Source: Pedosphaera parvula Ellin514 (GTDB lineage Bacteria > Verrucomicrobiota > Verrucomicrobiia > Limisphaerales > Pedosphaeraceae). Taken from it: DNA of 62,209 nucleotides. How positions within the stretch are numbered: position 1 is the first letter of the stretch; the number at the start of each line of letters is the position of its first letter. Made by a program: the position numbers and the translations under genes. Below the pieces are notes generated by a model. That model saw only the letters and a list, made by a program, of their open reading frames with translations. It was not told the origin of the DNA and made no database searches. This document shows positions 11,208-32,274 of this stretch, one piece after another. The stretch spans positions 1 through 62,209 of the forward strand of contig NZ_ABOX02000040.1 in NCBI RefSeq assembly GCF_000172555.1. Direction: 5' to 3'.

Positions 11208-11328
11208 TCCGCCGTTGTGGTAGCCAAAGCCATCCAAAAATGCTATCCTTTTGAGCTAAACAAGCCGTTGACAACGTATGCCGTTCGGCTACCGTTACCG
11301 GCTCTGAATTACTAAATAGAGATAATTT

Positions 11329-11592
11329 ATGCCGAATACAAAGTCAGCTGAACGCCGCATGCGGAATAGTGCCCGCAAACAAAAGAATAACCGCAGCACC
11401 ACCACGCGGTTGCATACTCTCGAGAAGAATTACCTGCAACTCGTGACCGCAGGCAAGAAGGACGAGGCTACCAAGGCTTATCAAGCAGTGACCTCCGCTC
11501 TGGACAAAGCCGCCAAGACTGGCACCGTCCACCGGTCCACCGCCAGCCGCAAGAAGTCCCGTTTGGCTCTCCGCCTGAACAAGGTGAAGTAA
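11329..11592 (+). CDS. rpsT: 30S ribosomal protein S20
   Basis: An 87-residue, strongly basic helical protein beginning MPNTKSAERRMRNSARKQ, the S20 signature, and ending in a Lys/Arg-rich helix (STASRKKSRLALRLN). Length is normal for the family. S20 binds 16S rRNA early in 30S assembly. It is a single-gene unit: 121 nt separate it from the permease, and a canonical terminator follows. A TTGACA hexamer at 11268-11273 could be a -35 element, but I see no matching -10 at normal spacing. Confidence 0.96.
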   Translation: MPNTKSAERRMRNSARKQKNNRSTTTRLHTLEKNYLQLVTAGKKDEATKAYQAVTSALDKAAKTGTVHRSTASRKKSRLALRLNKVK

Positions 11593-11603
11593 TTCATTTT
11601 ACC

Positions 11604-11640
11604 AAAAGGCGTCTGCTCCCGCGCAGACGCCTTTTTTCTT
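11604..11640 (+). terminator. Intrinsic terminator after rpsT
   Basis: A perfect nine-base-pair GC-rich stem (11608-11616 with 11623-11631), extended by A-T pairs, with a 6-nt loop and a T run at 11632-11640. It starts 12 nt after the rpsT stop and is the clearest factor-independent terminator in the window. Confidence 0.92.
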
Positions 11641-11832
11641 TATCAAGGCTGCCTCCCCCGCCCGGTGCCCGAAGACGATAATGTTTGAAGGGGTATGGCA
11701 AAGCCAGCCCGCCTTGAATTGCGACCAGGTTGACGACACAACAGGATCGGCAATCCGTCCCTGCACTCCAACCTTCGCTTGCTTTTTTTTCAGCGCTTCA
11801 CAATAGTTGCGAAAAAATTAGCAAGCCTCCAT

Positions 11833-12267
11833 ATGAAAGAGAAAACCATTCTGCTAGTTGAAGATTCTGAAGATGATGTTTTTTTCTTCCAGCGCGCTCT
11901 CAATCGCAAAGGAGCCAAGTACCCGGTGCAGGTCGCCATGGATGGGGACGAAGCCGTTAATTATCTTAGTGGCAAAGGCGCTTTTTCGGATCGCACCAGG
12001 CATCCCCTGCCCGATCTGATCTTTTTGGACATTCAAATGCCCAGGATGAACGGTCATGAGGTGCTGCGCTGGATTCGTGAGCAGCCGGAATTGCGGACGA
12101 TTCCGGTGGTTATTCTCAGCACCTCATCCCAACCGATTGATATTCAAAGAGCGAATGCCGCTGGTGGGAACGCATATCTTCTCAAAACCTCCAATTCAGA
12201 AAAATTCGGCACCATCCTGGATCATACTCTCTACTTCTGGCTGGAGGCCAATCAACGATTGGCTTGA
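11833..12267 (+). CDS. Single-domain response regulator (CheY/Rcp1-like)
   Basis: A 144-residue receiver domain from the ATG at 11833. The acidic pocket is Glu10-Asp11, the phosphoacceptor is Asp66 (LIFLDIQMPRMNGHEV), and the switch Ser/Thr lies in VVILSTSSQ and the conserved Lys in YLLKTSN. There is no output domain. The insertion between helix 2 and strand 3 (SGKGAFSDRTRHPLPD) is typical of the Rcp1-type receivers that pair with phytochrome-like or hybrid histidine kinases. No kinase gene lies nearby, so its partner is elsewhere. It probably relays phosphate or acts by protein contact. Confidence 0.9.
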   Translation: MKEKTILLVEDSEDDVFFFQRALNRKGAKYPVQVAMDGDEAVNYLSGKGAFSDRTRHPLPDLIFLDIQMPRMNGHEVLRWIREQPELRTIPVVILSTSSQPIDIQRANAAGGNAYLLKTSNSEKFGTILDHTLYFWLEANQRLA

Positions 12268-12728: not shown

Positions 12729-15296
12729 ATGTGTTCCCTCGAAGTTCCGTGCAAGCTATACCATGGCTTGCTGGTGAGGCGACTGGCATGCGTTGTCGCA
12801 TACGTGTTGACAATCCTCCTCTCCAGTCTTGTGCCGGCCGCACGAGCTGCTACGAACATGACACCCATCGCAGTCACCGGTTTCAACCGGGACCTGGTGG
12901 TTGAGAGTACTGCGCACGGCCCACCTTATACCAGCTACGCCGTCGAATTGAATCCCGGCGAGGGAAACGCCTATTACGAGAGAGGCTTGCCCGGTTACGG
13001 TTTTGGCATGCCATCAGGCTCATTCACCACCACTGCCGGCGATAATACCATTTTCCAGTTTCAGCCCTACACAAACAACAATGCACTGGTGTTGAGCAGT
13101 GCCACAGGCCTCACCAACGGCACACTGACTCTGGTGACGCCTGCGACGTACTCCAAAATCGCCGTGCTCGCCAATTCTGCATATGGCACTAACTACTCTG
13201 GATTTCTCAGCTTGAATTTCAGCGACGGTTCCACAGTTCTGACGACGTATTACACGCCAGATTGGTTTGCGAATCCGACCAATGTGGCGTTAAAGGGAGT
13301 GTCTCGCATCAACCTCGTGGACGGCAGCAGTGACGGCATACCGGACGATCCGCGATTTTACCAAACCACCATCAATGTGGCCGCGCTTTTGGGCGGGACG
13401 AACAAACCACTTGCCAGCATCACGTTTGGCAACGCAGTGGCCGGAGCGACAGCCATTTATGCGGTCAGCGGCCAGCTGGCCCCCAATTTGGCACCGATCG
13501 CCCTCACCGGTTTTAATCGTGACCTGGTGATTGAGAGTAATGCGTCCGGTCCACCATACAACAGCGTTGCGACCGAGTTGAATCCGGGCGAAGGGACGTC
13601 CTTTTATCAAAGCGGTCTCCCTGGCAAGACATATGGGTTGCCTGCGTACGGAGTGTTTAGCAGCGCGCTGGACGGAGTTACTTTCCAGTTTCAACCTTAT
13701 AGCGCAAACAATGCGCTGGTATTGAGCAGCACGACCGGCCTGACCAATGGCACATTGTCGCTGGTTGCCCCGGCGACCTACAATAGCATTGCCATTCTCG
13801 CCAACTCAGCTGGCGGTGGTGGTTCGCCAAATGTAACTTTTAATTTTGCAGACGGCACCTCGTTCGTCGCGACGTACAATGCAGTAGATTGGTTTTATAA
13901 TCCAAACTTTGCGCTTAACGGCGTGGAGCGAATCCATTTGAACAACGGCGCCACGGAAGGCGCGCCGGATAATCCGCGCTTTTATCAAACCACACTCAAT
14001 CTGGTGACCTTACTCGGCGCAACCAACAAGCCATTGGCGAGCATGACTTTCTCGAAAGCAGCAGGAGCTGGGGCCACGGCTATCTATGCGGTGAGTGGCC
14101 GGCAAGGCGCGCAAACGAACGGTTCATTCACATTATCAACCGTGACGAATGCACCGGCAACGGGGATTCAAACCACCGCCGCAACGCTTGGCGGACGAAT
14201 CGTTTCAACCGGCGGGGACGATCCCGAGGTTTTGATTTATTATGGCGCGGCAGATGGTGGGACGAATGCGGGTGCCTGGACGCGCCGTTTGACGCTGGGA
14301 TTTCAAACCGGCTCATTCACCCAAGCGGTTGCCGGGTTGTCGTTCAACACAACTTATTACTTTCGTAGCGTTGCGGTAAATGCCGCAGGCACCGTGTGGG
14401 CCAGTACGTCCCAGAGTTTCAGCACTCCGGCACCCGCCTTGGCGGTAGTAACGAACCAACCGGCCTCGGGCATTCAAACAACCTCTGCCTTGCTCGGAGG
14501 AAGAGTGGTCTCCACTGGTGGGGACGCGCCTCTCATCACACTGTATTACGGTCCGACTGACGGCAGCACCAACACGGGAGCCTGGGCGCGGAATGTCGCA
14601 TTGGGCACACAGACGGGATCGTTCGCTCAAGTCGTCACCGGGCTGGTTTCTGGCACGACATACTATTTCACCTCCAAGGCGGTGAATGCGGCTGGAACAG
14701 CATGGGCTGCCGGTTCCCAAAGTTTTGCACCCCCCGCATCCAATGCTCCGCCAACCTCGTTGAATTCAGTGCTCACCTATCGCAATGACAACGCCCGAAC
14801 GGGGCTCAACACCAATGAAACGACGCTTACATTGGCCAACGTCAACACGAACTCCTTCGGGAAACTTTTCTCCTACGCACTGGACGGTTACATGGCTGCC
14901 CAGCCGCTGGTACTGCCCAATGTCGCGATTGCCGGCAAAGGGATCCACAACGTAGTTTTTGCCGTCACAGAGCACGACAGTATTTATGCTTTTGACGCCG
15001 ATGGCAACGGCGGCACCAACGCCGCTCCACTGTGGCAGGTAAGTTTCATCAACCCGGCGGCGGGAATCACGCCCCTCGATGCGGCCAATGACCTGGCCAG
15101 TTGGTGTACGTTCATAGGACCGGAAATCGGCATTACCGGCACGCCGGTAATTGATCCTGCCACCGGGACCATTTACGTGGAAGCCAAGACCAAGGAGGTG
15201 TCAAACAACGCGACAAATTTCGTACACCGGTTACATGCGCTGGATGTAACGAGCGGCGCTGAAAAATTTGGGCGGTCCGATGATCATCGAGGCTAG
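12729..15296 (+). CDS. Giant secreted beta-propeller/PA14/cytochrome protein, N-terminal part (frameshifted)
   Basis: The frame encodes about 850 residues before losing register near 15270. An N-terminal hydrophobic stretch ([13 protein letters not shown], then AARA) is a signal peptide; an in-frame TTG at 12768 is an alternative start. Residues ~43-250 and ~253-460 are two copies of one beta-rich module (each starts with G-F-N-R-D-L-V and contains LNPGEG). Two fibronectin-III-like copies follow (14140-14740, each with a GGR-V-STGGD core). Then comes a PQQ-dehydrogenase-like propeller start ([27 protein letters not shown]). The last residues before the stop (GRSDDHRG) are out of register: the correct continuation ([12 protein letters not shown]) lies in the next frame. 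This and the following entry were almost certainly one gene. Confidence 0.8.
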
Positions 15297-18200
15297 TGTC
15301 CCGGGCAACGGCGATGGGAATGACGGTCAAGGTAACGTGCCGTTCATGCAAGCAAAAGAATTGAACCGTCCCGGACTGCTCCTGCTTAATGGAACAGTTT
15401 ATATTGCCTTCGGCTCACACTGTGATTTTACCCCGTATCACGGCTGGGTGCTGGGCTACGACGAATATACGCTGGCACAAAATGGAGTTTATAACACGAC
15501 GCCGAATGGCTTTGATGGGGCAATCTGGCAGGCTGGTGATGCTCCCGCAGCCGATGCCGCCGGCAATCTTTATTTCGAAACCGGCAATGGCACGTTCGAT
15601 GTCGTCAACAACAACTATGGCGATTGTGTCGTCAAGCTCTCCAGTACCAATGGCCTTTCGCTCGCGGATTATTTTGCGCCCTACAACCAGGCGTATTTGG
15701 ATGATCAAGATCTGGACCTCGGTTCGGCGGGGCTGATGTTGTTGCCTGACTCGGCGGGCAGCGCGGCGCATCGGCATTTGCTGGTGGCCGGCAGTAAGAC
15801 CGGCACGATTTACCTGATTGATCGGGATAATATGGGACACTTCAACGCATCAGGTGACACCCAGATTGTGCAGTCACTCCCTAACGCCGCAGGTGGTATG
15901 TGGAGTACGCCCGCCTATTTCAATGGGATGTTTTATTATGGTAGCGCAGGCGACCGGATTAAGGCATTCGCTGTCGCCAACGGGTCCATTAACCCAACTA
16001 TCGTGGGGCAGACTGCCGCCGCCCTGGGTTATCCCGGCGTTTCGCCCAGTATTTCAGCCAATGGAACCAACAACGCAATTGCTTGGGCACTCGATACTTC
16101 CGGATTCCCCGATAATCCTGCGGTTCTCCATGCTTACAATGCGACGAATCTGGCGCAGGAACTTTACAATACCAGCCAAAATCCGGACCGCGATACCGCG
16201 GGCAAGGCGGTGAAATTCGTTGTGCCAACAATTGTTAATGGCAAGGTCTACGTCGCCACGGCGGATTCATTGTCGATCTATGGCAGCAGCGTTTTTGTGA
16301 GCGCTCCCGTCATTGCTCCCAATGGCGGCACTTTCACCAACGCAGTGACCGTCACTCTTTCGAATACTGCACCCGGAGCAACGCTCTACTACACGCTGGA
16401 CGGTACCGCACCAACCAGCAACTCACTCCCATATATTGGCTCATTTGTACTTACCAACAGTTTGGCGGTTAAAGCTGTGGCCGTGATATCAAATGGAGTA
16501 AGTGCGGTAATCACCGCCAGTTTTATCAATAGTTCTGCTGTCGGCAATGGCGCTGGCCTGCAAGGGGAATACTTTTCGAACCATTCCAGCACAAATGCAT
16601 TTGCCGGATCACCCACCCTGGTCCGCACCGATCCAACTATCAATTTCGATTGGAACACTGGTTCGCCCGACCCGCTGATCAGTACCGATCAGTTCACAGT
16701 TCGCTGGACGGGCATGGTGCAGCCTCAATTCAATGAAACTTATACCTTTTATACGAGGACGGACGATGGCGTGCGGCTTTGGATAAACAACCAATTGCTG
16801 ATCGACAAATGGGTGGGACAGTCGCCGACGGAATGGAGCGGCTCGATCTCGCTGGCTGCGCAACAGAAATACAACGTCAGGATGGAATTTTTTGAAGGTG
16901 CAGTGACCGTAGTGGCACAACTTTCCTGGAGCAGTCCTTCCACGGCCAAGGCCATCATCCCACAAACCCAGCTTTACCCTGTCACCAATCCGCCACCGGC
17001 TATTTCCTTAATCGTTCCAACCAACGGCTCCTCGTTTACGGCCAGTGCGAGCGTCACGCTGAGTGCAGTTGCCACAAGTCCCTACAACGCGATTGCTGCA
17101 GTAAATTTTTATAACAATGGAATTCAGCTCGGCAGTGTGAGTAATAGTCCTTATACCATCACCGCGACCGGCCTGGCGGCGGGTGCTTACACGCTTACAG
17201 CAGTTGCGACCGACACGACGGGTCTGGCCACCACTTCCGCCCCGGTCTCTGTTACCGTGACCACCGGCACAGGACAACCTTACGGCTTAACCACTCGCGC
17301 AACAGTCACACCGTTCCTCAACTTGCCAACCACATTTAATGGTTCAATACCGCCAGCACTTTCACAAACAGGCGTCTTTACCAATACCACCACCATGAAT
17401 CCTGCCAATGGACTCGTGCCTTACAATGTCAATGTTCCATTGTGGTCCGACGGCGCGGTGAAAACCCGTTGGATGGCGGTGCCCAATAGCGGCGCACCTT
17501 ATACTCCAACCCAACAAATCGGTTTTGCTCCCACTGGCGAATGGACTTTCCCGGCCGGCACGGTGTTCGTCAAACACTTCGACCTAATCACCGATGAAAC
17601 GAACCCAAGCGTCAAACGCCGCCTTGAAACCCGCCTCCTTGTGCGCGACATCAACGGCACTGTTTATGGTGTTAGCTACAAATGGCGGGCTGATAACAGC
17701 GACGCGGACCTCCTTACCACCAGCCTAAGTGAAAACATCCTCGTCACCACTTCCACCGGTATCAGGACACAAACCTGGTATTATCCCAGTCCACAGGATT
17801 GCCTGACCTGTCACACCCCGAGTGCCAATTACGTGCTGGGCGTCAAGACGCGGCAGCTAAATGGGAACTTCAGTTATCCTGCTTCTGGTGTGACGGACAA
17901 TCAACTCCGCACGCTTAATCGGTTGGGACTTTTCAATCCCGCCATCGACGAGTCTGGCATCAACAGCTACACGAAGCTCGCAGCCACCACCAACCAGGCC
18001 GTCCCACTGGAGGATCGCGCCCGCTCGTATCTCGATGCCAACTGCGCCCAGTGTCATCGCCCCGGCGGCAGCGGCATCACGTTCGACGCACGTTACGACA
18101 CGCCGTTGACCAATCAAAACATTATCAATGTGGTACCCGTTAAAGGCACGTTGGGCTATGACAATGCCCGACTCATCGTGCCACGGGACATCTGGCGCTC

Positions 18201-18792
18201 GGTGATTCATGGCCGGATGAACAGCACCGACTCAACCATCAAAATGCCGCCATTGGCACGTAATCTTGTTGATACCAACTCCGTCCAATTAATCGCCGCC
18301 TGGATTAACAGCCTGCCCGGAACGCCAGCACTCCAGCCACCCACCCTGACCCCTGCGGGCGGCACATTCTTCAATTCGGCAACCATCCAGTTGCAACATC
18401 CTGATCCGAATGCGGCGCTTCGCTATACGCTGGACAGCACGCTGCCCACCACGAATTCACAGCTCTATTCGGGACCGTTCCAGCTCACCAACAGCGCCAT
18501 GGTCACTGCGAGCGCATTCGAAACTGGCTTCAATAACAGCGTCGCGATCAACGCGCTGTTTACAATTCAACCTGCATTGTTTTTCACTTCGACGGGTTAC
18601 TTCACTAATGGCGCATTCCAATTGCAATTATCAGGCCAGGTCGGAAAGACCTACATCTTCCAGGGAACCAGCGATTTTACCAATTGGATTTCGCTTGGCA
18701 CGAACGCGGGGCCTTCCAGTCTGATCCAGCTTGCAGACCCGAACGCAACGAATTTCCCTTATCGCTTCTACCGCGCCGTCGAAAAACCTTGA
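15268..18792 (+). CDS. Giant secreted protein, C-terminal part: propeller, PA14, Ig-like and diheme cytochrome domains
   Basis: In-frame sequence from about 15268 continues the propeller of the preceding entry. Domains in order are the rest of the propeller (residues ~1-340), a chitobiase-C-terminal-like domain ([13 protein letters not shown]), PA14 ([12 protein letters not shown] to LYPV), a Big/Ig-like domain, then a diheme segment with CLTCH (17800-17814) and CAQCH (18043-18057). That segment resembles the SO_2930/HNE_0200-type cytochromes I recall, which share the [14 protein letters not shown] stretch. A second chitobiase-C-like domain and a C-terminal module ending RFYRAVEKP follow. Two CXXCH motifs imply covalent haem and periplasmic or surface electron transfer; PA14 and propeller imply glycan or alcohol/sugar contact. 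The TTG at 15268 is only the first in-frame start-like codon, not a believable initiation site. Confidence 0.82.
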
Positions 18793-18850
18793 GTTGTGCA
18801 CTCGTTTGGCACTCGACAAATGCTGGGCACTTGCAAATGATTGCCTGAAC

Positions 18851-21061
18851 ATGCACCTGAGGCTCCAACTTGTTTTCGCGCTCCTGCTTACAGTCACTGT
18901 GCAGGCGGAAGAACCGCCGATGATTCCCGTTGGCCTGGACACATATCGGATGTGGGAACGTTGGCCCTATCAACACATTGGCCAACGCGCGTATATGCGG
19001 AGCACGTATGACCGGCGGGGTGGAAATGAAGGGGCGGATGCAAGCCATTTCCTCTATCAACTCGCCGACGATTACAATGTGAGCCTGGATGTCGCGGGCC
19101 CGGGTGTGCTTTATTTCGCGCGGTATAATCACTGGCATGGGAGCCCATGGCATTACAATGTGGATGCAACGGATTACGTGGTGCAGGAAACCAGCACGGC
19201 AAATCCAAATAAACCGGCGGAGAATTCGGTCTTCATGCCAGGAGATGCCTTTCCAAATCCGTTGACGTGGACCTGGTCGATTACAAAAGGAGCTGACCTG
19301 ATGTGGGTTCCGATTCCATTTGAGAAATCATTTCAGATGGCCTACTCCCGCACGCATTACGGCACCGGTTATTACATTTACGATAAATATGTCCGAGGCA
19401 CGAAGCTTTCGCGGCCGATTCGCTCATGGAATGAGCAGATGAAGCCGGAGCAGGATGTGTTGGATTTGATCAATCGAGTGGGAAGCGATCTTGTGCCGCA
19501 ACCGGAAACACGCGAAGGCAGGAAGTTGGGAATCACGCGCGAGGCTGGCACATGGAGTTTCTCCGGCGGCGGAACAGTTGGAGTCGAACGCAGAACGGAT
19601 AAGCCGCAAATGCTGCGCGCATTGGAATTTTCCGTCCCAAAGGATAAGGCGATTGAGTTTGGGCGATGCAAAATCAGGATCACCTGGGATGACCTCCCCT
19701 ACTCGTCAGTCGAAGCGCCGATTGCCCTCTTCTTTGGAGCCGGCACCCTCTATAACCGCGATGACCGGGAATATCTGGTGAAATCATTTCCGATGGTGGT
19801 GAAGTTTGATCAGGAGCGGGTGCATCTCGCCTGTTACTTTCCAATGCCATTTTTGAAGTCGGCATTGATTCAACTGATCGGTGATGGGAAGAGTTCGGTC
19901 AGCGATATTCAGTGGAGTGCGCGTTTCGCGCCTTACAAAGAGCCAGCGAATCAAGTCGGCTATTTTCATGCAACATACCAGGATCATCCGCATCCGGAAC
20001 CAGGACAGGATTTGGTCCTGCTTGAAACGCGCAAGACAGAAGGTGGGGGTGACTGGTCAGGGAGCCTAGTGGGAACATCGTTTATCTTTACCCATCAAAA
20101 TGATTTGGGAACCTTGGAAGGCGATCCGCGATTTTTCTTTGATGATAGTTTAACACCACAGGCGCAAGGCACCGGCACCGAGGAATGGGGTGGCGGTGGT
20201 GACTACTGGGGTGGACGCAACATGACGTTGCCCTTTGCCGGGCATCCGGTGGGCGCGCGCAAAATTGAGGAAGCGAAGTGCGATGAGGACAAGATTCATT
20301 CCGCTTACCGGTTTCTGCTGGCGGATTTGATGCCGTTTGGAAAGAACGCGTTGATCCGCCTGGAACATGGTGGCGAGAACCAATCAACCCAGCATTATGA
20401 GACTGTGACGTATTGGTATGGGTTGAACAGTCCATCGCTGGTGAAGACGGATACATTGCAGATGGGCAATGAAGCGAGCGAGCAGTTGCATCGATATGAT
20501 TCGCCGGAGGCAACGAAGCCTTATGAGATTACGTCGAGATATGAATGGGGTATTGATAACTGGAAGGGGAAGGAGATTTATCCGGCCAGCACTGATATAG
20601 GGCGCAAGACTACCGGCAGTTCTGAATTCACAATGAAGTTGGAACGAAAGAACCTGGGCGTGCTATTGCGTCGGAAGCTGGATTATTCGTTTCCAAACCA
20701 GAAAGCGGAGGTTTACGTGGCCAAAGTTTCACACAGCGGCAAATCCATAATTGACTCTGATTGGAAGCTGGCGGGCACGTGGTATCTCGCGGGAGGCAAT
20801 ACGTGCGTTTATTCCAATCCCAAGGAGGAGCTCGGGGCAACGCAGCACACTGTGCAAACGTCGAATCGGCGATTTCGAGATGACGAGTTTCTGATTCCAG
20901 GCGATCTCACCGAAGGGCGCTCAGAGATTCGGGTGAAGGTGAAATTCACGCCAATGAAGATACCGTTGTTTCCAGGACAGCCGTTGCCGGAATTGGCGTG
21001 GAGCGAGATTCGGTATGATGCGTATTGTTTCGTGATGCCAAAGAGCAAGCCCGTCCGATAA
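18851..21061 (+). CDS. Secreted DUF2961 protein
   Basis: A 736-residue protein. The ATG at 18851 gives a signal peptide (MHLRLQLVFALLLTVTVQAEE), so longer in-frame starts overlapping the previous gene are rejected. The DUF2961 core is visible from YMRSTYDRRGGNEGADASHF and GPGVLYFARYNHWHG through GTGTEEWGGGGDYW and RFLLADLMPFG. DUF2961 belongs to a family now linked to glycan cleavage: some members are glycoside hydrolases acting on fructofuranose- or arabinofuranose-type glycans (family knowledge; activity here is inference). It begins 58 nt after the cytochrome/PA14 gene and may be cotranscribed with it. A fragment related to its C-terminus lies at 26913-26986. Confidence 0.85.
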   Translation: MHLRLQLVFALLLTVTVQAEEPPMIPVGLDTYRMWERWPYQHIGQRAYMRSTYDRRGGNEGADASHFLYQLADDYNVSLDVAGPGVLYFARYNHWHGSPWHYNVDATDYVVQETSTANPNKPAENSVFMPGDAFPNPLTWTWSITKGADLMWVPIPFEKSFQMAYSRTHYGTGYYIYDKYVRGTKLSRPIRSWNEQMKPEQDVLDLINRVGSDLVPQPETREGRKLGITREAGTWSFSGGGTVGVERRTDKPQMLRALEFSVPKDKAIEFGRCKIRITWDDLPYSSVEAPIALFFGAGTLYNRDDREYLVKSFPMVVKFDQERVHLACYFPMPFLKSALIQLIGDGKSSVSDIQWSARFAPYKEPANQVGYFHATYQDHPHPEPGQDLVLLETRKTEGGGDWSGSLVGTSFIFTHQNDLGTLEGDPRFFFDDSLTPQAQGTGTEEWGGGGDYWGGRNMTLPFAGHPVGARKIEEAKCDEDKIHSAYRFLLADLMPFGKNALIRLEHGGENQSTQHYETVTYWYGLNSPSLVKTDTLQMGNEASEQLHRYDSPEATKPYEITSRYEWGIDNWKGKEIYPASTDIGRKTTGSSEFTMKLERKNLGVLLRRKLDYSFPNQKAEVYVAKVSHSGKSIIDSDWKLAGTWYLAGGNTCVYSNPKEELGATQHTVQTSNRRFRDDEFLIPGDLTEGRSEIRVKVKFTPMKIPLFPGQPLPELAWSEIRYDAYCFVMPKSKPVR

Positions 21062-21389: not shown

Positions 21390-24300
21390 ATGAAAACTAG
21401 AATCCCCGGGGAAGTTTTTGGAAAAGCGCAAGCTAGATTAATGGTTATCAGCGCCGTTGCGGTTCTGTTCAGCTTTTTGTTTATGGCGCCTGTTTGGGCC
21501 GTCGAAAGGCAAACGTTGCGCAATCACGTGCCCACGGCAGTTCGACATCTCCAACCGGTGAGCAAGCTCTCCGCCAGCAAGAGCATTGACCTCAGCATCA
21601 GCCTGCCCTTGCGCAACCGGGAGATTTTGACCAACCTGCTGCAACAGATTTACGATCCAACCAGCACCAATTATCATCGTTATCTCACCTCAGAGCAGTT
21701 TGCCCAACAGTTTGGCCCCACGGAAAAGGATTATCAGACGCTTTTAACTTATCTGAAAAGCCAGGGCCTCGCGGTTACCGGCACTCATCCCAATCGCACT
21801 TTGGTGGATGTGAATGGAGGTGTAGGGAACATTGAAAAGGTTTTTCAGATCGGGCTTCGGACCTATCAGCATCCGACGGAAAGTCGTACCTTTTACGCAC
21901 CGGATACCGAGCCGTCATTTGACCGAACCCTATCCATCCTGTCCGTAAGCGGACTTGACAACTACGTGTTGCCGCGTCCTATGAATTTAAAAAATGCTTT
22001 TCACCGAAGCCTAAATGCGACACCTCATGTGACCGGCTCCGGGCCAAGAGGCAATTTTATCGGGAAGGATTTTCGCGCCGCCTATGCTCCCGGTGTTACG
22101 CTCGATGGGTCGGGACAGGCGGTGGGGTTGTTTGAGTTGGATGGATATTTTCCAGGTGACATTGCCGAGTACGAGGCCTTGACCGGATTGCCAAATGTAA
22201 CTGTAACGAATGTCCTTCTGAATGGCCGTGGCGCTTCTGCCGGTCTCAACAACGTGGAAGTGGCACTCGATATTGAAATGGTTATTTCCATGGCGCCCGC
22301 GTTATCGAAGGTGATTGTCTATGAGGGAAACAGTCCCAACGACGTTTTGAATCGAATGGCGACAGACAATCAGGCCAGGCAGCTTAGTTGCTCATGGGGT
22401 TTCGGTTCACAAGTGGATGCGGGACGCGACCAGATATTCCAACAATTCGCAGCCCAGGGGCAATCCATGTTCCAGGCTTCGGGTGACCTGGGTGCGTGGT
22501 CCGGAGCAATCTTCCCACCGTCCGACAATCCGTTCATTACGGTTGTTGGCGGCACGTCGTTGACCACAACCAATCCCAGCGGCGCATGGACCTCAGAAAC
22601 CGCCTGGCCCTTAAGCGGCGGAGGCATCAGCACAACCTATGCGCTTCCGGCCTGGCAACAAGGAATAGGCATCCCAGCCAACCAGGGTTCTACGACCATG
22701 CGGAACATTCCAGACGTCGCCTGTCTGGCCGATTCCATCATCTGGATCGTCGCCAATAATGGCGAGCAAGGTGTAGTCGGCGGCACAAGCGCATCAGCGC
22801 CATTATGGGCTGGCTTCACGGCACTGGTTAACCAGCAGGCTGCGGCCAGTGGCAAAGCCAGCGTGGGATTTATCAATCCAGCCATTTACGCCATCGGAAA
22901 ACGGCCGGACTTTGCGATTAATTTCCATGATGTGGTGAGCGGGAATAACACAAATTCCAGCAGTCCCAACAAATTCTTTGCTGTCACGGGTTATGATCTT
23001 TGCACAGGCTGGGGAACGCCCAATGGCAGCAATTTGATTTCGGCACTTCTTGGGCCACCTGATTCTTTGCTTATCACCCCGGCGACCATTGTGACTGCCA
23101 TGGGCGCGGCGAGCGGACCGTTCAATCCTGCCGCACAGAATTATGCGTTGACGACATTTGGAGAACTTCCCGTCAATTGGTCGGCAGCCAATTCTTCGGC
23201 CTGGCTGGATGTTTCCCCTACTGCCGGCACCATTGCGACTAATTCGCCTGCGACCGTGACTTTTAGCTTGAATTCCACGGCCAGTAATTTGTTGGCCGGA
23301 AGCTACGTTGCCAAGGTCTGGTTCACCAATCTTAACAACGGTTTTGCACAAAGCCGCCAGTTCATCCTGAATATCATCACGCCGCCGATTATCACAACCC
23401 AACCTTCCAACCAGACCGTGCTGTCGGGGGCAGCAGCCAGATTCGCCGTGGGAACCGCCGCGAATGCGCAATTGTCCTACCAGTGGCAGAGGAACGGGAC
23501 GAACATAACCAATAGCGGCAATATCTCTGGTTCGGACACCAGTGTGCTGGCCATCGCCGACGCATCTCCTGTCGACGCCGGAATCTATGCCGTCATCGTC
23601 AGTAACGCGTTGAACTCGGTCACAAGTTCAGAGGCAACCCTCACCGTCCTGCCAACAACAACACCTGAAGTTACCATGGCCACTCTTTATTCGTTCACCG
23701 GAGGTACCGATGGCGCCAATCCCAACACCCTTATGCAAAGCACAAGTGGCGATTTTTATGGCACTACCCAGCGTGGCGGATTGGATGGATCAGGCACGGT
23801 TTTCAAAATGCCCCCAGGCGGCGTTCCTGTAAACCTTCATTCATTTTCTGGACAAGCGGATGGTGCTCATCCACAGGCCGCGCTGGTTCAGTCGATGGAC
23901 GGCAATCTTTATGGGACGACGTTTGGAGGCGGCCTTACCGGCAACGGCACAGTTTTCAAAATGGGCACCAACGGTCTTCTTACCTCACTGGTTTCATTCA
24001 ATATAACCAATGGTGATTTTCCGTATGCGGGGCTCACCTTCGCGACGGATGGCAATCTTTACGGCACCACGTCTCAAGGTGGGAATGCCGGTCATGGCAC
24101 CGCTTTTAAAATGAATACGAACGGTGTTCTATCCACCCTGGTTTCATTCGTTGATGTCAATGGCGGTTTTCCTCATGCCGGGTTGATTCAAGGGATGGAT
24201 GGGAGTTTTTATGGCACGACTTTCAAGGGAGGAAACTTTGATGGCGGGATCGTTTTCAAAATGACCACCAACGGAACCCTTACAACGTTGGTTCCCCTAA

Positions 24301-26912
24301 GCAACATTGGAGGGGCGTTTCCATACGCCACGCTGTTGCAGGATGAGAGCGGAAATTTTTATGGTACCGTGGCAGGCGGGGGCAGTTATAATAATGGCAC
24401 GATTTTCAAGATCAGTCCTGCTGGCGTTTTCACAAACCTGCATTCATTCACAGGAGGCAGTGACGGCGCTCATCCTTTTGCAGGATTGATTCAAGGAACC
24501 GACGGCAATTTTTATGGAACCACGCCTTATGGGGGCGATTATGGTTATGGCACGGTGTTCAGAATATCAGCTGATGGCAGGCTGACCAACCTGGTGGAAT
24601 TTAATGGTTACAATGGCGCCAATCCCATCACCGCCTTGACACAAGGTGCGGACGGCAATTTATATGGCACGACTCAAAATGGCGGGGCCACAGACCAAGG
24701 TGTTATTTTTCGATTGCATCTCGATGGCCCATTGCAGGTCACGGCCCAACCCGCCAGCCAGACGGTTTATTCAGGAACGAATATTCTTCTTTCTGTGGCA
24801 ACCTCCGGTGGCATACCTCTCTCCTACCAATGGCAGATGAATGGGAGCAATCTTGTGGATGGCGGCAATCTCTTTGGCCCAGACAGGCGTACGTTGAGCA
24901 TCACCAACGTGGCCTCAGTTAATGCGGGAGTTTATTCGGTCATCGTCAGCAATAGCTTTGGTTCAGTCTCGAGCGACGGAGCAACAGTTCAGGTTATCGT
25001 TGCTCCGCCTCTTTTTACTATGCAACCCACCAACCAGACAGTTACACCTGGAGCAACAGTAACATTCAATGCAGCGGCTCTCGGCAGTCTGCCATTGAGC
25101 TACCATTGGCAAAAGGATGGGACAAACCTGGTTGACGGCGCCCGTATCTCGGGTTCTGCCAGCAGCAGTTTGACATTGAGCGGCGTTATCGAAACTAATA
25201 ACGGGATTTATTCCGTGGTGGTGAGCAATCATCTCGCAGTCATTATGAGCAGCGGGGCAACGCTATCCGTCATTCCAGTCAGTGCAACGGGAACGCGGCT
25301 TGCCGTCTTGCACTCTTTCAGCCAAAGCGGTGGTGGTTGGCAACCAAATGGCTTGATGCGAGCCAACGATGGCGATCTATACGGCACTACCGCATCTGGC
25401 AGCGCAACGAGGTCAGGCGCTTTCGGGACGATTTTCAAAATCACCACGAACGGTCAGTTTACCGCTTTGCTTTCATTTACTGGCAACGACGAACCGACAC
25501 CCGGCTTTGCTCCTTTGGCGACGCTAGTGCAGGACACGAATGGGAATTTTTATGGCACGACCCAAAATGGCGGGACAAATGGAGCAGGAAATATCTTCAA
25601 GCTGGCCCCTGATTACACTTACAACAATCTCTATTCCTTCATAGGCGAAAGTGATGGCTATGCCCCTGCCTTTCCATTGTTACTGGCAACGGATGGAAAC
25701 CTTTACGGGTCCGCTGGCGATGTGTCCAATGGCGGCATATTCAGAATAACACCGAGTGGACAGTTCACCACTTTTCATTCATTTACCGACACCCAAGGCA
25801 CCTTTCCCGTGGGAGCTTTATGCCAGGCCGCGGATGGGAATTTCTACGGCATGAGCAGTGGTGGTGGCGCTTATGGCTACGGTACGGTCTTCAAAATAAC
25901 GCCGGAAGGCACCCTGACAAACTTTTATTCTTTCAGTGGCGGTCCGGACGGCTTTGCGCCGGTGGGGGCGCTGGTTCAGGGCACAGACGGCAACCTTTAC
26001 GGGGTGACGAAATACAGCAGCACTAACCTTGCGGGCATGAATTTCCAACAGGAAGGCACGGCCCTCAGGATTACAACGAATGGAGCACTGACCCTCTTGT
26101 ATACTTTTGGACCGACGTACAGCAACGGCACTTATCCTTCAGCGGGGTTGATCTTAAGCAGTGACGGCAATTTTTATGGCACCACCTATGGCGCCATGTC
26201 GGGCGGATTGCAAGCCGGTGCTTCTCCTGTTAACGGCACCGTTTTCAGGCTCGCTCCAAATGGAACGTTGACAACACTCGTTGCTTTCGATGGCATTGAT
26301 GGCGGTGCGCATCCCAATTCTGCCCTGGTGGAAGGTCCGGACGGGGCTTTCTACGGAACAACCACAACCGGCGGGACGGGCGCGCGTGGCACCATCTTCA
26401 AGCTGAGCATTACTTCCTCGCCCCTGTTCACCAGTCAACCGGCCAGCCAAGTGGTGGCTTCGGGTGGGGACGTAATGTTCAGTGTGGCGATTTCCGGTGC
26501 GCCACAACTATTCTACCAATGGCAAAAGAATGGAACCAATTTGAGCGACGGTCCCAATATTTCCGGATCGGCCACCCGAATCTTATTCCTTAACAATGTG
26601 AGTTTGAGTGACGCAGGGAATTATTCGGTAACCGTGAGCAATACGCTTGGTTCAGTGATGAGCACCAACGCATATCTCACAATCATTGCCCAACCGGTAT
26701 TTCAGTCTATAAGAATGACAAACGGGACATTGAGGCTCGATTGGAGAGCGATGGCGGGACAACGGTATCAAGTACAGTTCAATGCCAATCTCGCTTCGAT
26801 CAATTGGATCAATTTTGGCAGCATTATCAACGCGACCAATGACACAGTAACGGCAACTGATATCATCGATTCCAGTGCGCAACGATTTTATCGCGTTGTC
26901 CTGCTACCATAG
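21390..26912 (+). CDS. S53 (sedolisin/kumamolisin) peptidase with 14 GloVer repeats and Ig-like domains
   Basis: A 1,840-residue secreted protein from the ATG at 21390 (hydrophobic export segment at residues ~17-37). A pro-kumamolisin activation domain (~40-200) precedes the S53 catalytic domain (~215-560), with candidate Glu290-Asp294 (NNVEVALDIEM), oxyanion Asp366 (SGDLGAW), nucleophile Ser467 (GGTSASAP) and a Ca-site segment GYDLCTGWG. Then come a BACON-like domain, one Ig-like domain, seven Gloeo_Verruco (TIGR03803-type) repeats (23684-24728), two Ig-like domains, seven more repeats (25303-26412), one Ig-like domain and a C-terminal module ending RFYRVVLLP. Repeats share the core DGN-LYGTT-GG--G-GT-FK. 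S53 enzymes work at acidic pH. The product is likely a surface-anchored or released protease; the repeats should mediate binding. Confidence 0.88.
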   Translation: MKTRIPGEVFGKAQARLMVISAVAVLFSFLFMAPVWAVERQTLRNHVPTAVRHLQPVSKLSASKSIDLSISLPLRNREILTNLLQQIYDPTSTNYHRYLTSEQFAQQFGPTEKDYQTLLTYLKSQGLAVTGTHPNRTLVDVNGGVGNIEKVFQIGLRTYQHPTESRTFYAPDTEPSFDRTLSILSVSGLDNYVLPRPMNLKNAFHRSLNATPHVTGSGPRGNFIGKDFRAAYAPGVTLDGSGQAVGLFELDGYFPGDIAEYEALTGLPNVTVTNVLLNGRGASAGLNNVEVALDIEMVISMAPALSKVIVYEGNSPNDVLNRMATDNQARQLSCSWGFGSQVDAGRDQIFQQFAAQGQSMFQASGDLGAWSGAIFPPSDNPFITVVGGTSLTTTNPSGAWTSETAWPLSGGGISTTYALPAWQQGIGIPANQGSTTMRNIPDVACLADSIIWIVANNGEQGVVGGTSASAPLWAGFTALVNQQAAASGKASVGFINPAIYAIGKRPDFAINFHDVVSGNNTNSSSPNKFFAVTGYDLCTGWGTPNGSNLISALLGPPDSLLITPATIVTAMGAASGPFNPAAQNYALTTFGELPVNWSAANSSAWLDVSPTAGTIATNSPATVTFSLNSTASNLLAGSYVAKVWFTNLNNGFAQSRQFILNIITPPIITTQPSNQTVLSGAAARFAVGTAANAQLSYQWQRNGTNITNSGNISGSDTSVLAIADASPVDAGIYAVIVSNALNSVTSSEATLTVLPTTTPEVTMATLYSFTGGTDGANPNTLMQSTSGDFYGTTQRGGLDGSGTVFKMPPGGVPVNLHSFSGQADGAHPQAALVQSMDGNLYGTTFGGGLTGNGTVFKMGTNGLLTSLVSFNITNGDFPYAGLTFATDGNLYGTTSQGGNAGHGTAFKMNTNGVLSTLVSFVDVNGGFPHAGLIQGMDGSFYGTTFKGGNFDGGIVFKMTTNGTLTTLVPLSNIGGAFPYATLLQDESGNFYGTVAGGGSYNNGTIFKISPAGVFTNLHSFTGGSDGAHPFAGLIQGTDGNFYGTTPYGGDYGYGTVFRISADGRLTNLVEFNGYNGANPITALTQGADGNLYGTTQNGGATDQGVIFRLHLDGPLQVTAQPASQTVYSGTNILLSVATSGGIPLSYQWQMNGSNLVDGGNLFGPDRRTLSITNVASVNAGVYSVIVSNSFGSVSSDGATVQVIVAPPLFTMQPTNQTVTPGATVTFNAAALGSLPLSYHWQKDGTNLVDGARISGSASSSLTLSGVIETNNGIYSVVVSNHLAVIMSSGATLSVIPVSATGTRLAVLHSFSQSGGGWQPNGLMRANDGDLYGTTASGSATRSGAFGTIFKITTNGQFTALLSFTGNDEPTPGFAPLATLVQDTNGNFYGTTQNGGTNGAGNIFKLAPDYTYNNLYSFIGESDGYAPAFPLLLATDGNLYGSAGDVSNGGIFRITPSGQFTTFHSFTDTQGTFPVGALCQAADGNFYGMSSGGGAYGYGTVFKITPEGTLTNFYSFSGGPDGFAPVGALVQGTDGNLYGVTKYSSTNLAGMNFQQEGTALRITTNGALTLLYTFGPTYSNGTYPSAGLILSSDGNFYGTTYGAMSGGLQAGASPVNGTVFRLAPNGTLTTLVAFDGIDGGAHPNSALVEGPDGAFYGTTTTGGTGARGTIFKLSITSSPLFTSQPASQVVASGGDVMFSVAISGAPQLFYQWQKNGTNLSDGPNISGSATRILFLNNVSLSDAGNYSVTVSNTLGSVMSTNAYLTIIAQPVFQSIRMTNGTLRLDWRAMAGQRYQVQFNANLASINWINFGSIINATNDTVTATDIIDSSAQRFYRVVLLP

Positions 26913-27309: not shown

Positions 27310-30300
27310 ATGAAAACCTTCATCTCCTCACCCATCGAGCAATGCGTGCGCAAGGTTGCACGCATGGTTTGGGCAAAGAAAGCGATTAGCGGATTTGTAA
27401 TGGCCAGCCTTATGGCATCAGCCTCCGCTGAGGCTCAAATCCAAACGGCTGGGAGTTTATTCGTAAACATCGATGCGACTACTCTCCCGCCAGGTGCAGT
27501 GAGTGATATTACAAACTCCGGAACGTTGGGTGGTTATTTTGAAACCCGGCCCGGTGGCGTGTTTGTTGGAGCCACCAACGCAGTAAATGGGATTCAGTTT
27601 GTTGGCACTAATTACATGGTATTGGTGAACGGAATTGGGGGAGCGTTGATTCCTCCGCCATCCGGACTCGTGGGCAGCAATGCCACGGCTTCGATTGAGG
27701 TTTGGGCTTACAATCCTTCCGTGGCAGACGATGAATGCATGGTGGCCTGGGGAAGACGCGGGACCACGGGGCAAAACATGGCATTTGAATATGGCTATAA
27801 TGCCGGGTTGGGTGCAGTCACGCACACGGGAACCGCGAATGATATCAGCTGGGACAACTTTGGTGGCACACCATTAAACAACCGCTGGCACCATCTGGCC
27901 TACACGTACGATGGGACAAACGAAAGCGTTTATGTTGATGGCGCGCTGGCCAACAGCAAACAGGTCACATTGAACATCGCCACGAATGCCGGCATCAGCC
28001 TGGCTGCGCAATGGACCAATAGCGTGATCAGCACTGCTCCTGCCTTTGCGACGCTGGGCATAGCCCGTGTGCGCATCCATGATGGAGCTTTGACTCCGGC
28101 CCAGGTGTTGGCCAACTTCAATACTGAAAAGGCGACATTCATTTCACCAGGTCCGACATCGCAATTTTTGACCAGTGGGCCGACGCATCGTTATTCGTTC
28201 AACGAGCCAGCAACCAACGATGCGACGGGTTTGGCAATTCATGATTCCGCGGGCACAGCTGACGGTGTGGTTCAGGGATTGAGTGCGACGCAGACGGTTG
28301 GTCAATATGCCAACGGGAGGCTGGTGCTGCCTGGTGGGGCACAAAATACCACTGCATACGCCGACTTCCCTAATGGATTGCTATCCGTCAACGGCACGAA
28401 CAACGGTGGTTCCGGCGAAGTCAGCATCGAGGTTTGGTATAAGAATACTGGAGGGCAAAGCCTCAGTTGGGCGCGCGTATTTGATTTTGGATCCGTTGGC
28501 ACCAATGGCATTCCCGGCATGGAGTTGACCGGCCCAGGAGGTTATCCGGCAGCGGGGGCAACAGGCCCGGACACGCTTTATTACTCTGCGCAGATGAGCA
28601 CAGGTGTCAATCAACGACGATTGGGATGGCAACATCGCGATCCGCTGCCCGACGGAAGCACCAATGGTTCCACCTCGGGTGACGTTTTCATGATGAACTC
28701 ATTTCAAACGGACCGGCATGTGGTGGTCACCTGGCAGGAGAGCACCGGTCAAATCATTGCTTACGAAAACGGCACCCGGGTGGCTGCTGTGTTCGCCACC
28801 AACTCCATCAACGCCATTAATGACGTCAATCTGTGGCTCGGTCGCTCGCAGGGAGGTGTTGGAGACGGCGGCCTGGCTGGTGAGTTCGATGAGTTTCGAA
28901 TTTACAACAAAGTGCTCACGCCCGGGCAGGTGGTTGGAAATTTTCAGGTGGGTCCGAATACTGTGAACACAGGTGAGCAAGCTCCGAGCATCACGGTGCA
29001 GCCACTAGGCCTTACCATTCTCCAGGGCTCCAGCGTTTCATTTAGCATCGTTGCCTCAGGCAGCCCGGCGGTCAGCTATCAGTGGACTCGCAACGGCACG
29101 CCCATTTCAGCTGCGACAAATAAATTATACACGCTGGCAGCCGCTAGCACCTCGAACAATGGGGATGTTTATTCCTGTGTGATTTCCAACTTTGCAGGAG
29201 CAACCGCGCATACGCTCGCCAGTGCCAATGCCACAGTTACAGTGATACCCAATCAGGCATTGCCGGCGCAGTTCCTGCATGAAACACGGGATGGAACCAG
29301 GGATAATTACAACAGTGCCTCCAGCGGCATCGTTGGAGGACTGTTCACTTCCGGAAGCACGCCGGTTCCTGTCACGCATCTTGGATTTTATGACATGAAC
29401 AAAGATGGTCTCAACCGAGATCATCGCGTTGGCATTTTTTCAGCTGATGCCACCACACTGCTTGCCTCCGTCACGGTGCCAGCTGGAACCAGCGCGCTGC
29501 TGACAAATGGTTATCGCTGGGTGGCTCTGGACACGCCGTTTGTATTGAGCCCAAACACTACTTACATTTTGGAAGCTGAGGTGTTCGCCAATGATGGCGA
29601 TGGCTGGCCGGATATTTTCATACCCGGCCAATGGAATCCCTATTTCGTTGGCACGAATGGTCCTGCCTCGCGTCAGGGACGTTTTACGGGCGGGGCCTGG
29701 CCGAGTTCCCCGCTAAGCACCTCGACCGCAAACGGCACCTATGGCGCACCCAATCTGGCGAGTTTGCCGGTGGGGCCGGTGATTGCGTCCATGTTGCAGA
29801 CTTCGGTAACCCAATACGCGGGTCTGAGCGTAACCATTCCGGCGATAGTCAACGGCGAAGGGCCGGTGGCGGCGCAATGGTATAAGGGATCGGCGCCCGG
29901 CACATTGCTTGTCGGACAAACCAATTCATCGCTGGTGCTTTCGACGCTGACGGCTGCGGATGCGGGTGACTACTATGTCATTGCCAGCAACGCCGTTGGA
30001 ACTGCGCAGAGCGGCATTGTAACATTAACCGTGTTGGCCGATACCCCGGTTAGTTTCACTCAGCAGCCCGCAAGCATCAGTGTGCCCGAGAATTATGCGG
30101 CGTCGTTTACAGTGGCAGCCACTGGAACGCCGCCGATTGCCTATCAATGGACCCGGAATGGAACTCCGATTACAGGAGCCACCAACACTGATTACAGCAT
30201 AGCTGCTGTCAGCAGCACAAATAGTGGAGAGACTTATTCCTGCATTGTTTCCAATTTTGCGAACTCTGCGCCGCATGTGATCACGAGCATCGTTGCCACG

Positions 30301-32274
30301 CTGACTGTGCAACCGAACAGGGCGCCGACGATGCAGGTGTTGTATGAGAGCCGCACTCCGAACCGCGATGATTACCCTCCTAATAGTGCGGCCGGTGGTA
30401 GTGTGGGCGGACAATTCCCGGTCGGACCAACGGATGCGTTGGTGACGCACTTGGGATTTGCAGACTCAGGCGGCGATGGTCTAAATCGGGATCATCATGT
30501 GGGAATCTTCAGCATCAGTGGAACACTTCTGGCTTCAGTGATTGTTCCTGCAGGCACCGACGCTTATTACACGAACGGTTATCGGTGGATGGCACTCAAC
30601 CCGCCTATTGTGCTTACTAATAACACGACCTACGTCTTGTTGGGCGAAGTTTTCTCCGGTGATGGAGACTTCTGGCCAGACGTGTTCTCGCCGACGAATT
30701 GGAATTCATATTACGTCGGAAATGGCGATCCGAGCCAGCGCATCGGTCGGTTCGTTGGGTCTGCCTGGCCGGCAGCGGCCACCAGTGGAGGTTCGGCAAA
30801 TACAATGTATGCAGCGCCGAACATGGCGATTCTGCCGGTTGGGTTACCGCAGATAAACATGCTGCAGAGCAATGTCACCTTGTATGTCGGTGATAATATC
30901 ACTCTTTTCAGTATCCCGAATGGTCAGGCACCATTAACCCTCCAATGGTACAAAGCTCCCAACACGCCATTGACCGGTCAGACCAACACTTCCCTAGCGC
31001 TTAACAATCTCGCTCAGGCAAATTCCGGCACCTACTATGTGGTCGGAACCAATCCGCAGGGAACGGCTCAGAGCAGCAACGTCACTTTAAGTGTTCTGGC
31101 GATCACTCCGCCAATTATCAACCAGCAACCGGTCAGTCAGACTGTCTATCTGCACCAACGCGCCACGTTCAGTATCAGCGCAGTGGGACAACAGCCGTTG
31201 AATTATCAATGGAAGTTCAACGGGACACCGATTGCCGGAGCCAACAGCAGTTCCTTAACTGTGATAAATCCGACCGCCGCCAACGTTGGCAACTACAGCG
31301 TTACCATCAGCAACAGTCTGGGAACCACCAACAGCGCATCAGCCTCGCTCACAGTGACCTCTCTGCCTGACGGCAGCTATGGCGCGGCGGTGTTGAATGC
31401 GAATCCGGTAATTTATTATCGATTCGATGAGGCAGGATCCGGTACCAACCTGGCCTTCAATTTGGGCAACCTTGGGGTCGCGGGCAACGGAACCTATGAA
31501 GGAGCCTTCGTCGGAGGTTCCGGCCCGGTGCCTCCGGATTTCGCCAATTTCGAGAACCCGAATCCAGCCCCCACTTTTGACGGACTGAGCACGGATATTC
31601 TGGTGCCGGCATTGAACTTCAATACAAATGCGCCGGTGAGTGTCACGATGGCGGCCTGGATCAATAAACCCCTGGCTCAGGAAGCTTACGCCGGAATCAT
31701 ATTCTATCGCGGACTCGCCGGGGCGAACGGGTTTGGGATCAAGCAGGACCCGAACAGCGGCGGGGATGTATTGGAATATCACTGGAACAACACCTACTTC
31801 AACTTCGCGAGCGGAGTGGGAGTGCCGGATTCACAATGGGTATTGGCGGCGCTGATTGTCCAGCCAAACCAGGCGATCCTATACCTGCATGACAGCACCG
31901 GGACAGTCATGGCAACCAATGTGGCGGCACACACAGCTGTCGCCTTTTCTGACAGCGCCACCCATGTGGGATGGGACACAGCCGGCACCGCCAGCAGCCC
32001 ACGTCGTTTCTATGGACAAATTGATGAAGCGATGATTTTCGATCGGGCGCTGGCGCCAGCTGAGTTGGATGCCCTTTATGCAGCGGCCTCGGCTCCGCAG
32101 GTGAAAATCAGTGCGACGCTGTCGGGTTCCAATCTAATTTTGAATTGGGCCACCGGCACCTTGCAACAAGCGGACGAAGCGGCCGGTCCATATTCAGATG
32201 TAACGGCAGCGACGAGCCCTTATTCCGTTTCTGCCAGTGCAGCGAGGAAGTTTTATCGGGTAAGAGTGCAGTAG
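27310..32274 (+). CDS. Giant secreted LamG / Ig-like adhesin-type protein
   Basis: A 1,654-residue protein from the ATG at 27310, with a long positively charged N-region and a hydrophobic export segment ending ASAEAQ (residue ~43). Two LamG/concanavalin-like domains (~50-265 and ~300-545) are followed by Ig-like domains (xxxYQWTRNGTPI). A beta-rich module, FLHETRDGTRDNYN to GAPNLASLPVGP, appears twice (29270-29790 and 30330-30850), each followed by an Ig-like stretch with LQWYK or AQWYK. Another Ig domain, a third LamG (31370-32090) and a C-terminal module ending KFYRVRVQ complete it. No catalytic motif is visible. It probably binds glycans at the surface or in the matrix; this is inference. 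Confidence 0.8.
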   Translation: MKTFISSPIEQCVRKVARMVWAKKAISGFVMASLMASASAEAQIQTAGSLFVNIDATTLPPGAVSDITNSGTLGGYFETRPGGVFVGATNAVNGIQFVGTNYMVLVNGIGGALIPPPSGLVGSNATASIEVWAYNPSVADDECMVAWGRRGTTGQNMAFEYGYNAGLGAVTHTGTANDISWDNFGGTPLNNRWHHLAYTYDGTNESVYVDGALANSKQVTLNIATNAGISLAAQWTNSVISTAPAFATLGIARVRIHDGALTPAQVLANFNTEKATFISPGPTSQFLTSGPTHRYSFNEPATNDATGLAIHDSAGTADGVVQGLSATQTVGQYANGRLVLPGGAQNTTAYADFPNGLLSVNGTNNGGSGEVSIEVWYKNTGGQSLSWARVFDFGSVGTNGIPGMELTGPGGYPAAGATGPDTLYYSAQMSTGVNQRRLGWQHRDPLPDGSTNGSTSGDVFMMNSFQTDRHVVVTWQESTGQIIAYENGTRVAAVFATNSINAINDVNLWLGRSQGGVGDGGLAGEFDEFRIYNKVLTPGQVVGNFQVGPNTVNTGEQAPSITVQPLGLTILQGSSVSFSIVASGSPAVSYQWTRNGTPISAATNKLYTLAAASTSNNGDVYSCVISNFAGATAHTLASANATVTVIPNQALPAQFLHETRDGTRDNYNSASSGIVGGLFTSGSTPVPVTHLGFYDMNKDGLNRDHRVGIFSADATTLLASVTVPAGTSALLTNGYRWVALDTPFVLSPNTTYILEAEVFANDGDGWPDIFIPGQWNPYFVGTNGPASRQGRFTGGAWPSSPLSTSTANGTYGAPNLASLPVGPVIASMLQTSVTQYAGLSVTIPAIVNGEGPVAAQWYKGSAPGTLLVGQTNSSLVLSTLTAADAGDYYVIASNAVGTAQSGIVTLTVLADTPVSFTQQPASISVPENYAASFTVAATGTPPIAYQWTRNGTPITGATNTDYSIAAVSSTNSGETYSCIVSNFANSAPHVITSIVATLTVQPNRAPTMQVLYESRTPNRDDYPPNSAAGGSVGGQFPVGPTDALVTHLGFADSGGDGLNRDHHVGIFSISGTLLASVIVPAGTDAYYTNGYRWMALNPPIVLTNNTTYVLLGEVFSGDGDFWPDVFSPTNWNSYYVGNGDPSQRIGRFVGSAWPAAATSGGSANTMYAAPNMAILPVGLPQINMLQSNVTLYVGDNITLFSIPNGQAPLTLQWYKAPNTPLTGQTNTSLALNNLAQANSGTYYVVGTNPQGTAQSSNVTLSVLAITPPIINQQPVSQTVYLHQRATFSISAVGQQPLNYQWKFNGTPIAGANSSSLTVINPTAANVGNYSVTISNSLGTTNSASASLTVTSLPDGSYGAAVLNANPVIYYRFDEAGSGTNLAFNLGNLGVAGNGTYEGAFVGGSGPVPPDFANFENPNPAPTFDGLSTDILVPALNFNTNAPVSVTMAAWINKPLAQEAYAGIIFYRGLAGANGFGIKQDPNSGGDVLEYHWNNTYFNFASGVGVPDSQWVLAALIVQPNQAILYLHDSTGTVMATNVAAHTAVAFSDSATHVGWDTAGTASSPRRFYGQIDEAMIFDRALAPAELDALYAAASAPQVKISATLSGSNLILNWATGTLQQADEAAGPYSDVTAATSPYSVSASAARKFYRVRVQ

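Follow-up and report, generated by a model that had tools for sequence, protein, structure and literature searches.

An S53 protease from Pedosphaera parvula Ellin514 carries two seven-repeat GloVer blocks, the first confidently predicted to be a seven-bladed β-propeller

The window, the whole stretch of DNA analyzed here, covers positions 1 to 62,209 of contig NZ_ABOX02000040.1 of P. parvula Ellin514; the gene under study lies on its forward strand. We took ATG 21390 as the start codon (the longest open reading frame found by program opens earlier, at TTG 21369) and 26910-26912 as the stop. The gene, its parts and its nearest neighbors are as follows:

21390..26912, + strand: whole gene, S53 protease plus two GloVer blocks (1840 residues plus stop)
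21390..21500, + strand: signal-peptide-like N terminus, judged by eye with no predictor (basic start, hydrophobic stretch, end ...PVWA)
21558..21962, + strand: pro-kumamolisin activation domain PF09286 (E 3e-26)
22068..23054, + strand: S53 protease domain (match to kumamolisin 1t1e, E 2.2e-44)
23148..23288, + strand: weak BACON_2-like stretch (22.8 bits, under the cut-off of 25)
23382..23651, + strand: Ig domain 1, before block 1
23673..24728, + strand: GloVer block 1, seven repeats (repeat profile, TIGR03803), predicted seven-bladed propeller
24729..24998, + strand: Ig domain 2, first of two between the blocks
25005..25274, + strand: Ig domain 3, second of two between the blocks
25299..26408, + strand: GloVer block 2, seven repeats with longer insertions, putative propeller by homology to block 1
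26418..26687, + strand: Ig domain 4, after block 2
26673..26909, + strand: C-terminal "FYR" domain, with no name in Pfam or NCBIfam
18731-21061: DUF2961 protein, upstream of the S53-GloVer gene
15268-18792: PA14 + CHB_HEX_C protein, further upstream
27310-32274: Ig + LamG_3 + DUF4082 protein, next gene downstream

Genes for a sulfatase and for MacB- and HlyD-type exporters also lie further upstream, and the neighboring genes would suit a secreted degradation set. The four Ig domains sit where the original prediction had placed them; the BACON_2-like stretch and the C-terminal domain were absent from it.

The proposed S53 protease head is borne out by the propeptide, which places the protein in family S53, by the kumamolisin match and by intact catalytic residues. 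Numbered from ATG 21390, with codon positions in brackets, the key residues are Glu 290 (22257), Asp 294 (22269), Trp 336 (22395), Asp 366 (22485), Ser 467 (22788) and Asp 514 (22929); the roles of the Glu, the Asp, the oxyanion Asp, the Ser of the GTS motif and the calcium-site Asp (22929) we assume to be those in kumamolisin. All six are identical in an alignment of 20 S53 proteins, both in those that bear GloVer repeats (12/12) and in the others (8/8). The only other S53 protease of this genome found through its propeptide (L038:3711-7850, on G000:C43) has four Ig domains and an FYR end and carries no GloVer repeats.

NCBIfam TIGR03803 matches 14 stretches of the protein (E 1.4e-198; 642.6 bits against a curated cut-off of 44). 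A repeat profile of our own, seeded with the block 1 repeats and then iterated, also returns the seven plus seven repeats that had been claimed, and the block limits first proposed (23684-24728 and 25303-26412) prove right within 11 bases. A PDB search with the block 1 sequence alone finds nothing convincing (best E 0.43). An AlphaFold2 model of block 1, built from an alignment of 54 seven-repeat blocks, has a mean pLDDT of 96.8 and a pTM of 0.93. By VIA-align, residues 1-353 of the model match virginiamycin B lyase (Z 31.9, 293 aligned residues, 2.4 Å) and an integrin alpha chain (Z 31.1, 341 aligned residues, 3.1 Å). Foldseek gives its best E-values to the designed propellers Cake10, Cake9 and Cake8 (TM 0.52-0.58), followed by the Photorhabdus lectins PLL and PHL (query TM about 0.64-0.68; 13-16% identity). 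The block profile, compared with solved structures, ranks designed Cake5 first (E 2.1e-7) and the BP39L lectin 6gxr second (E 4.9e-7); Pfam Tachylectin is matched by 6 of the 54 block members (best E 1.3e-4) and Vgb_lyase by 5. The matched virginiamycin B lyase and integrin alpha chain have seven blades, as do the PLL/PHL and BP39L lectins. A single strand opens the modeled block, and its end has the strand order needed for that first strand to complete the last blade and close the ring, with the pairing itself not visible in the output. The model, matched by solved propellers over its whole length, thus bears out the anticipated propeller and makes a seven-bladed fold for block 1 a confident prediction. 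Block 2 aligns with the profile of the 54 blocks, of which it is itself one row, over 343 columns (E 2.2e-74), and its homology to block 1 makes it a putative propeller. Among viral proteins the block 1 model (23673-24734) is matched best by A0A481Z910 of Pithovirus LCPAC304 (28% identity, TM 0.85), which may be a giant-virus GloVer propeller.

Counting in sevens extends beyond this gene. The source genome has six GloVer frames, with 14, 14, 14, 7+7 (the present gene), 7 and at least 11 repeats, the last being cut by a contig end. Among 37 complete GloVer frames, from which ten frames that reach the end of their stretch were excluded, raw totals are multiples of seven in 29: 7 (n = 11), 14 (n = 15), 21 (n = 2) and 35 (n = 1). 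The remaining totals are 3, 4, 5, 5, 6, 9, 15 and 15. They come from two GloVer genes at L043 (3 and 5 repeats); L067 (4), with a contig end 91 bases from the start of its frame; L073 (5 and 9), where a single stop parts the two frames; L081 (6), where a weak seventh follows by eye; L091 (15), one of whose matches scores 0.8 bits and lies inside the S53 domain; and L100:3531-6380 (15, all above 45 bits), which lacks an FYR end. The stretches were drawn from the best-scoring repeat rows listed, so that weak arrays are under-sampled. The sevens are a regularity and carry no probability, the frames being related and taken from the best-scoring rows. One frame of 4198 residues (L066:6130-18723) has five separate blocks of seven repeats and no S53 domain. 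For contiguous arrays, a model of the 14-repeat array L033 (from 13 aligned arrays; pLDDT 75.9, pTM 0.58) lends no support to a simple 7+7 propeller reading: its best matches are designed Cake8 and Bagel8, eight-bladed by name, over residues 150-547 and 174-573, and virginiamycin B lyase follows over residues 1-347. GloVer repeats were detected in 21 of 40 near relatives at E 1e-3 and, at a stricter E 1e-15, in 3 of the 145 genomes sampled from the whole phylum, the source genome being counted in both.

The C-terminal domain spans about 75 residues and ends in FYR; in the window it also occurs at 18562-18780 and 60100-60300. The product of the next gene downstream, which alternates Ig domains with LamG_3 and DUF4082, ends in KFYRVRVQ. 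Nineteen aligned C-terminal ends gave no convincing match in Pfam (best E 0.0062) or NCBIfam (best E 0.017), each from one member, and a literature search on this type of C-terminal domain, judged from listings, found no fitting description. A profile of the domain has at least 139 matches in the source genome (E 1e-3; 150 of 307 candidates scored). A stop lies no more than 8 residues from the end in 19 of the 20 matches fetched, the exception being L134; in other loci this holds for 89 of 92. The domain is found in 39 of 40 near relatives and in 40 of 145 genomes across the phylum (both at E 1e-6, source genome counted). A simple motif test detects an FYR end in 37 of the 47 S53 frames that are complete and in 34 of the 42 GloVer frames, fused proteins counting in both sets; among other frames 300 residues or longer it does so in 17 of 444, a background lowered by the non-gene frames it includes. 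The domain is a candidate sorting or anchoring domain, one common to about a hundred proteins of the source genome.

The original prediction knew of no described case of an S53-GloVer fusion. The literature agrees, in that our searches found no description of GloVer/TIGR03803 proteins or of an S53 kumamolisin with a propeller, and nothing fitting, as judged from listings, on Verrucomicrobia sedolisins or on choice-of-anchor domains with a β-propeller. The architecture is nevertheless not unique: a fusion search found 11 further proteins, making 12 in 12 genomes and six families (f1, f9, f11, f15, f77 and f85), namely the window protein and those at loci L070, L083, L088, L091, L102, L104, L106, L108, L111, L116 and L119. 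The search was biased, with four members coming from GloVer matches and seven from 20 S53 stretches that were picked, mostly for long frames, among the matches listed. At L119 the S53 and GloVer frames overlap in different reading frames. All 26 blocks of the 12 fusions have seven repeats, once weak matches outside the blocks are dropped (L091, 0.8 bits; L116, −2.4 bits) and with one L119 repeat matched as a 14-residue fragment only; there are three blocks in L070 and in L083 and two in each of the other ten. The symmetric architecture that had been described is true of the window protein and is loose among its relatives, in which block 1 is preceded by zero (L102), one or two recognized Ig domains, the number of blocks is two or three and the ends differ. 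L043 was considered as a further fusion and rejected, its S53 frame (9998-12004) stopping short of the GloVer repeats, which lie in two genes of their own (13789-14667, with three repeats, and 14684-15892, with five), both having a start region and an FYR end.

Repeat identities bear on how the two-block layout arose. Within the window protein, repeats share on average 49% identity in block 1 and 41% in block 2. Compared with L070, repeats at the same position in corresponding blocks are on average 58% identical for either block, against 47% (block 1) and 45% (block 2) for the other repeats. The same tendency is seen in corresponding blocks of L102 (block 1, 55% versus 46%), L108 and L111. Block 1 of L083 compares with that of the window at 53% for same-position repeats and 48% for others; window block 2 prefers position in L083 block 3 (52% versus 44%) and not in L083 block 2 (47% versus 47%). 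L088 and L104 show next to no position-wise preference against the window repeats. This comparison took in seven of the eleven relatives. Because each repeat is most like the one at its own position when corresponding blocks of close relatives are compared, we read the two-propeller layout in the window's clade as inherited and not freshly amplified.

In a tree of the S53 domains (51 rows), the GloVer label requires four changes, likewise when only well-supported branches are counted; shuffled labels require 10.8 on average, and 0 of 500 shuffles went as low as four. The window protein groups with L119, L070, L102 and L111 (support 100/89), and L088, L091, L104, L106 and L116 form a second group (91/95, below the level that the tool stars). 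On the sequences compared, the fusion is a recurrent, inherited architecture. Two proteases from one genome, L108 with GloVer and L107 with CBM_4_9, are sisters (100/92); L083, with GloVer, adjoins L103, with LamG_3, at weak support (89/12). Thirteen of the S53 stretches fetched lack GloVer, and a Pfam scan covered four of them. L103 and L118 each have three LamG_3 stretches and L107 has CBM_4_9, and in these three of the four the best such stretch sits between Ig domains; the fourth, L105, has DUF11 and P-domains instead. The best reading is of a secreted S53 protease with exchangeable targeting modules, of which GloVer would be the propeller version.

On this analysis, the propellers probably keep the protease attached to its substrate. 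That their ligands would be glycans is argued mainly from position, LamG_3 and CBM_4_9 occupying the same slot in related proteases; LamG domains do not always bind sugars. The Photorhabdus lectins found by Foldseek, the BP39L profile match and the Tachylectin matches support a glycan ligand. It is weakened by the designed propellers that head both the profile and the Foldseek matches and by the Vgb_lyase matches, and glycan targeting of the protease is weakened by L105, with its DUF11 and P-domains in place of LamG or CBM. Also against the reading, the GloVer frames that lack S53 show that a protease is not needed by the repeat.

The strongest rival is that the propellers bind proteins or peptides, as a substrate exosite or in cell adhesion like the integrin alpha head, and not glycans. 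Integrin alpha chains make up much of the list of structures ranked by Z, and a protease would be expected to profit from a protein exosite; against this stand LamG_3 and CBM_4_9 as sister modules in the same slot and the lectins among the fold and profile matches, both of which are compatible with protein binding too. We regard this rival as unlikely, though it deserves attention. A second is that the propellers are passive, serving as spacers or surface-layer assembly units with no ligand, as could be expected from other GloVer proteins that are repeat arrays with little else (14 repeats in one 849-residue frame, for example). This fits poorly with the position-by-position identity fixed in the window's clade, which suggests distinct roles for the blades, and with the exchange of these modules for LamG and CBM, and we think it quite improbable. 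That the propellers are themselves enzymes, of the lyase or the lactonase type, fused to the protease would agree with virginiamycin B lyase as the best match by Z and with the Vgb_lyase matches in Pfam. Columns at least 90% conserved in the 54 blocks are Gly, Tyr, Phe, Pro and Leu only, with no His, Glu or Asp, where an enzyme should keep polar residues; this weakly favors binding through variable surfaces and leaves an enzymatic role very improbable, while a subgroup may have an active site of its own. That the fusion arose in assembly or occurs just once, as might be supposed from our first S53 scan (GloVer in the S53 frame at 0 of 26 loci, several of them cut by contig ends) and from a genome of the same genus, G001, with no match to GloVer (E 1e-3) or to the window S53 (E 1e-60), is scarcely conceivable, the repeats being orthologous position by position and the 11 further proteins in 11 other genomes ruling out an assembly artefact.

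The reading we prefer, and consider rather likely, is that of an exported S53 zymogen whose C-terminal two thirds are targeting modules, with propellers that direct it to glycan- or glycoprotein-rich matter. The kumamolisin-like zymogen would leave the cell by Sec export, lose its propeptide and then be active at low pH. The Ig domains would serve as spacers, and the two propellers would hold the enzyme on such matter as LamG or CBM_4_9 modules would in related proteases; the C-terminal domain may take the protein to the cell surface or hold it there. More tentatively, and with somewhat less than even confidence, we propose that GloVer is at large a lectin-like family of seven-unit propellers, that the S53 proteases of this order are a plug-in platform whose constant protease is followed, between Ig domains, by interchangeable propeller, LamG or CBM modules, and that the FYR tail provides surface delivery. 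If so, a family with no earlier structural assignment would be placed, and an undescribed tail would mark some hundred proteins in the richest genomes. GloVer, for which a sequence search had found no matching solved structure, gains a confidently predicted fold and a rule that its repeats come in sevens, and its proposed part in targeting acid-type proteases can be tested.

Several known systems share parts of this architecture. PMC9218822, on repetitive propellers, puts integrins, tachylectin and other lectins in a VCBS hub, and GloVer was looked for in its text and not found. Block 1 as modeled has the propeller fold of the PLL/PHL and BP39L lectins, with a weak profile match to BP39L; at 13-16% identity to PLL/PHL, the likeness to lectins is one of fold, as predicted here. 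We know of no case in which these lectins are joined to a protease. Other GloVer (TIGR03803) proteins have in common with the window protein the repeat and its count in sevens, and the other frames examined differ from the fusions in lacking S53; the TIGR03803 family description, as we understand it, includes a PEP-CTERM end, where the window protein has its FYR domain instead. Kumamolisin and peptidase family S53 (PDB 1t1e, 1sio) share the propeptide and a protease with its catalytic residues. The solved kumamolisin chain of 552 residues stops after the protease, and the Ig domains, propellers and FYR domain of the window protein have no counterpart in kumamolisin. The same-order S53 proteases L103, L118 and L107 have, like the window protein, the S53 domain, a BACON-like stretch, Ig-flanked modules and an FYR end, with LamG or CBM where the window protein has its predicted propellers.
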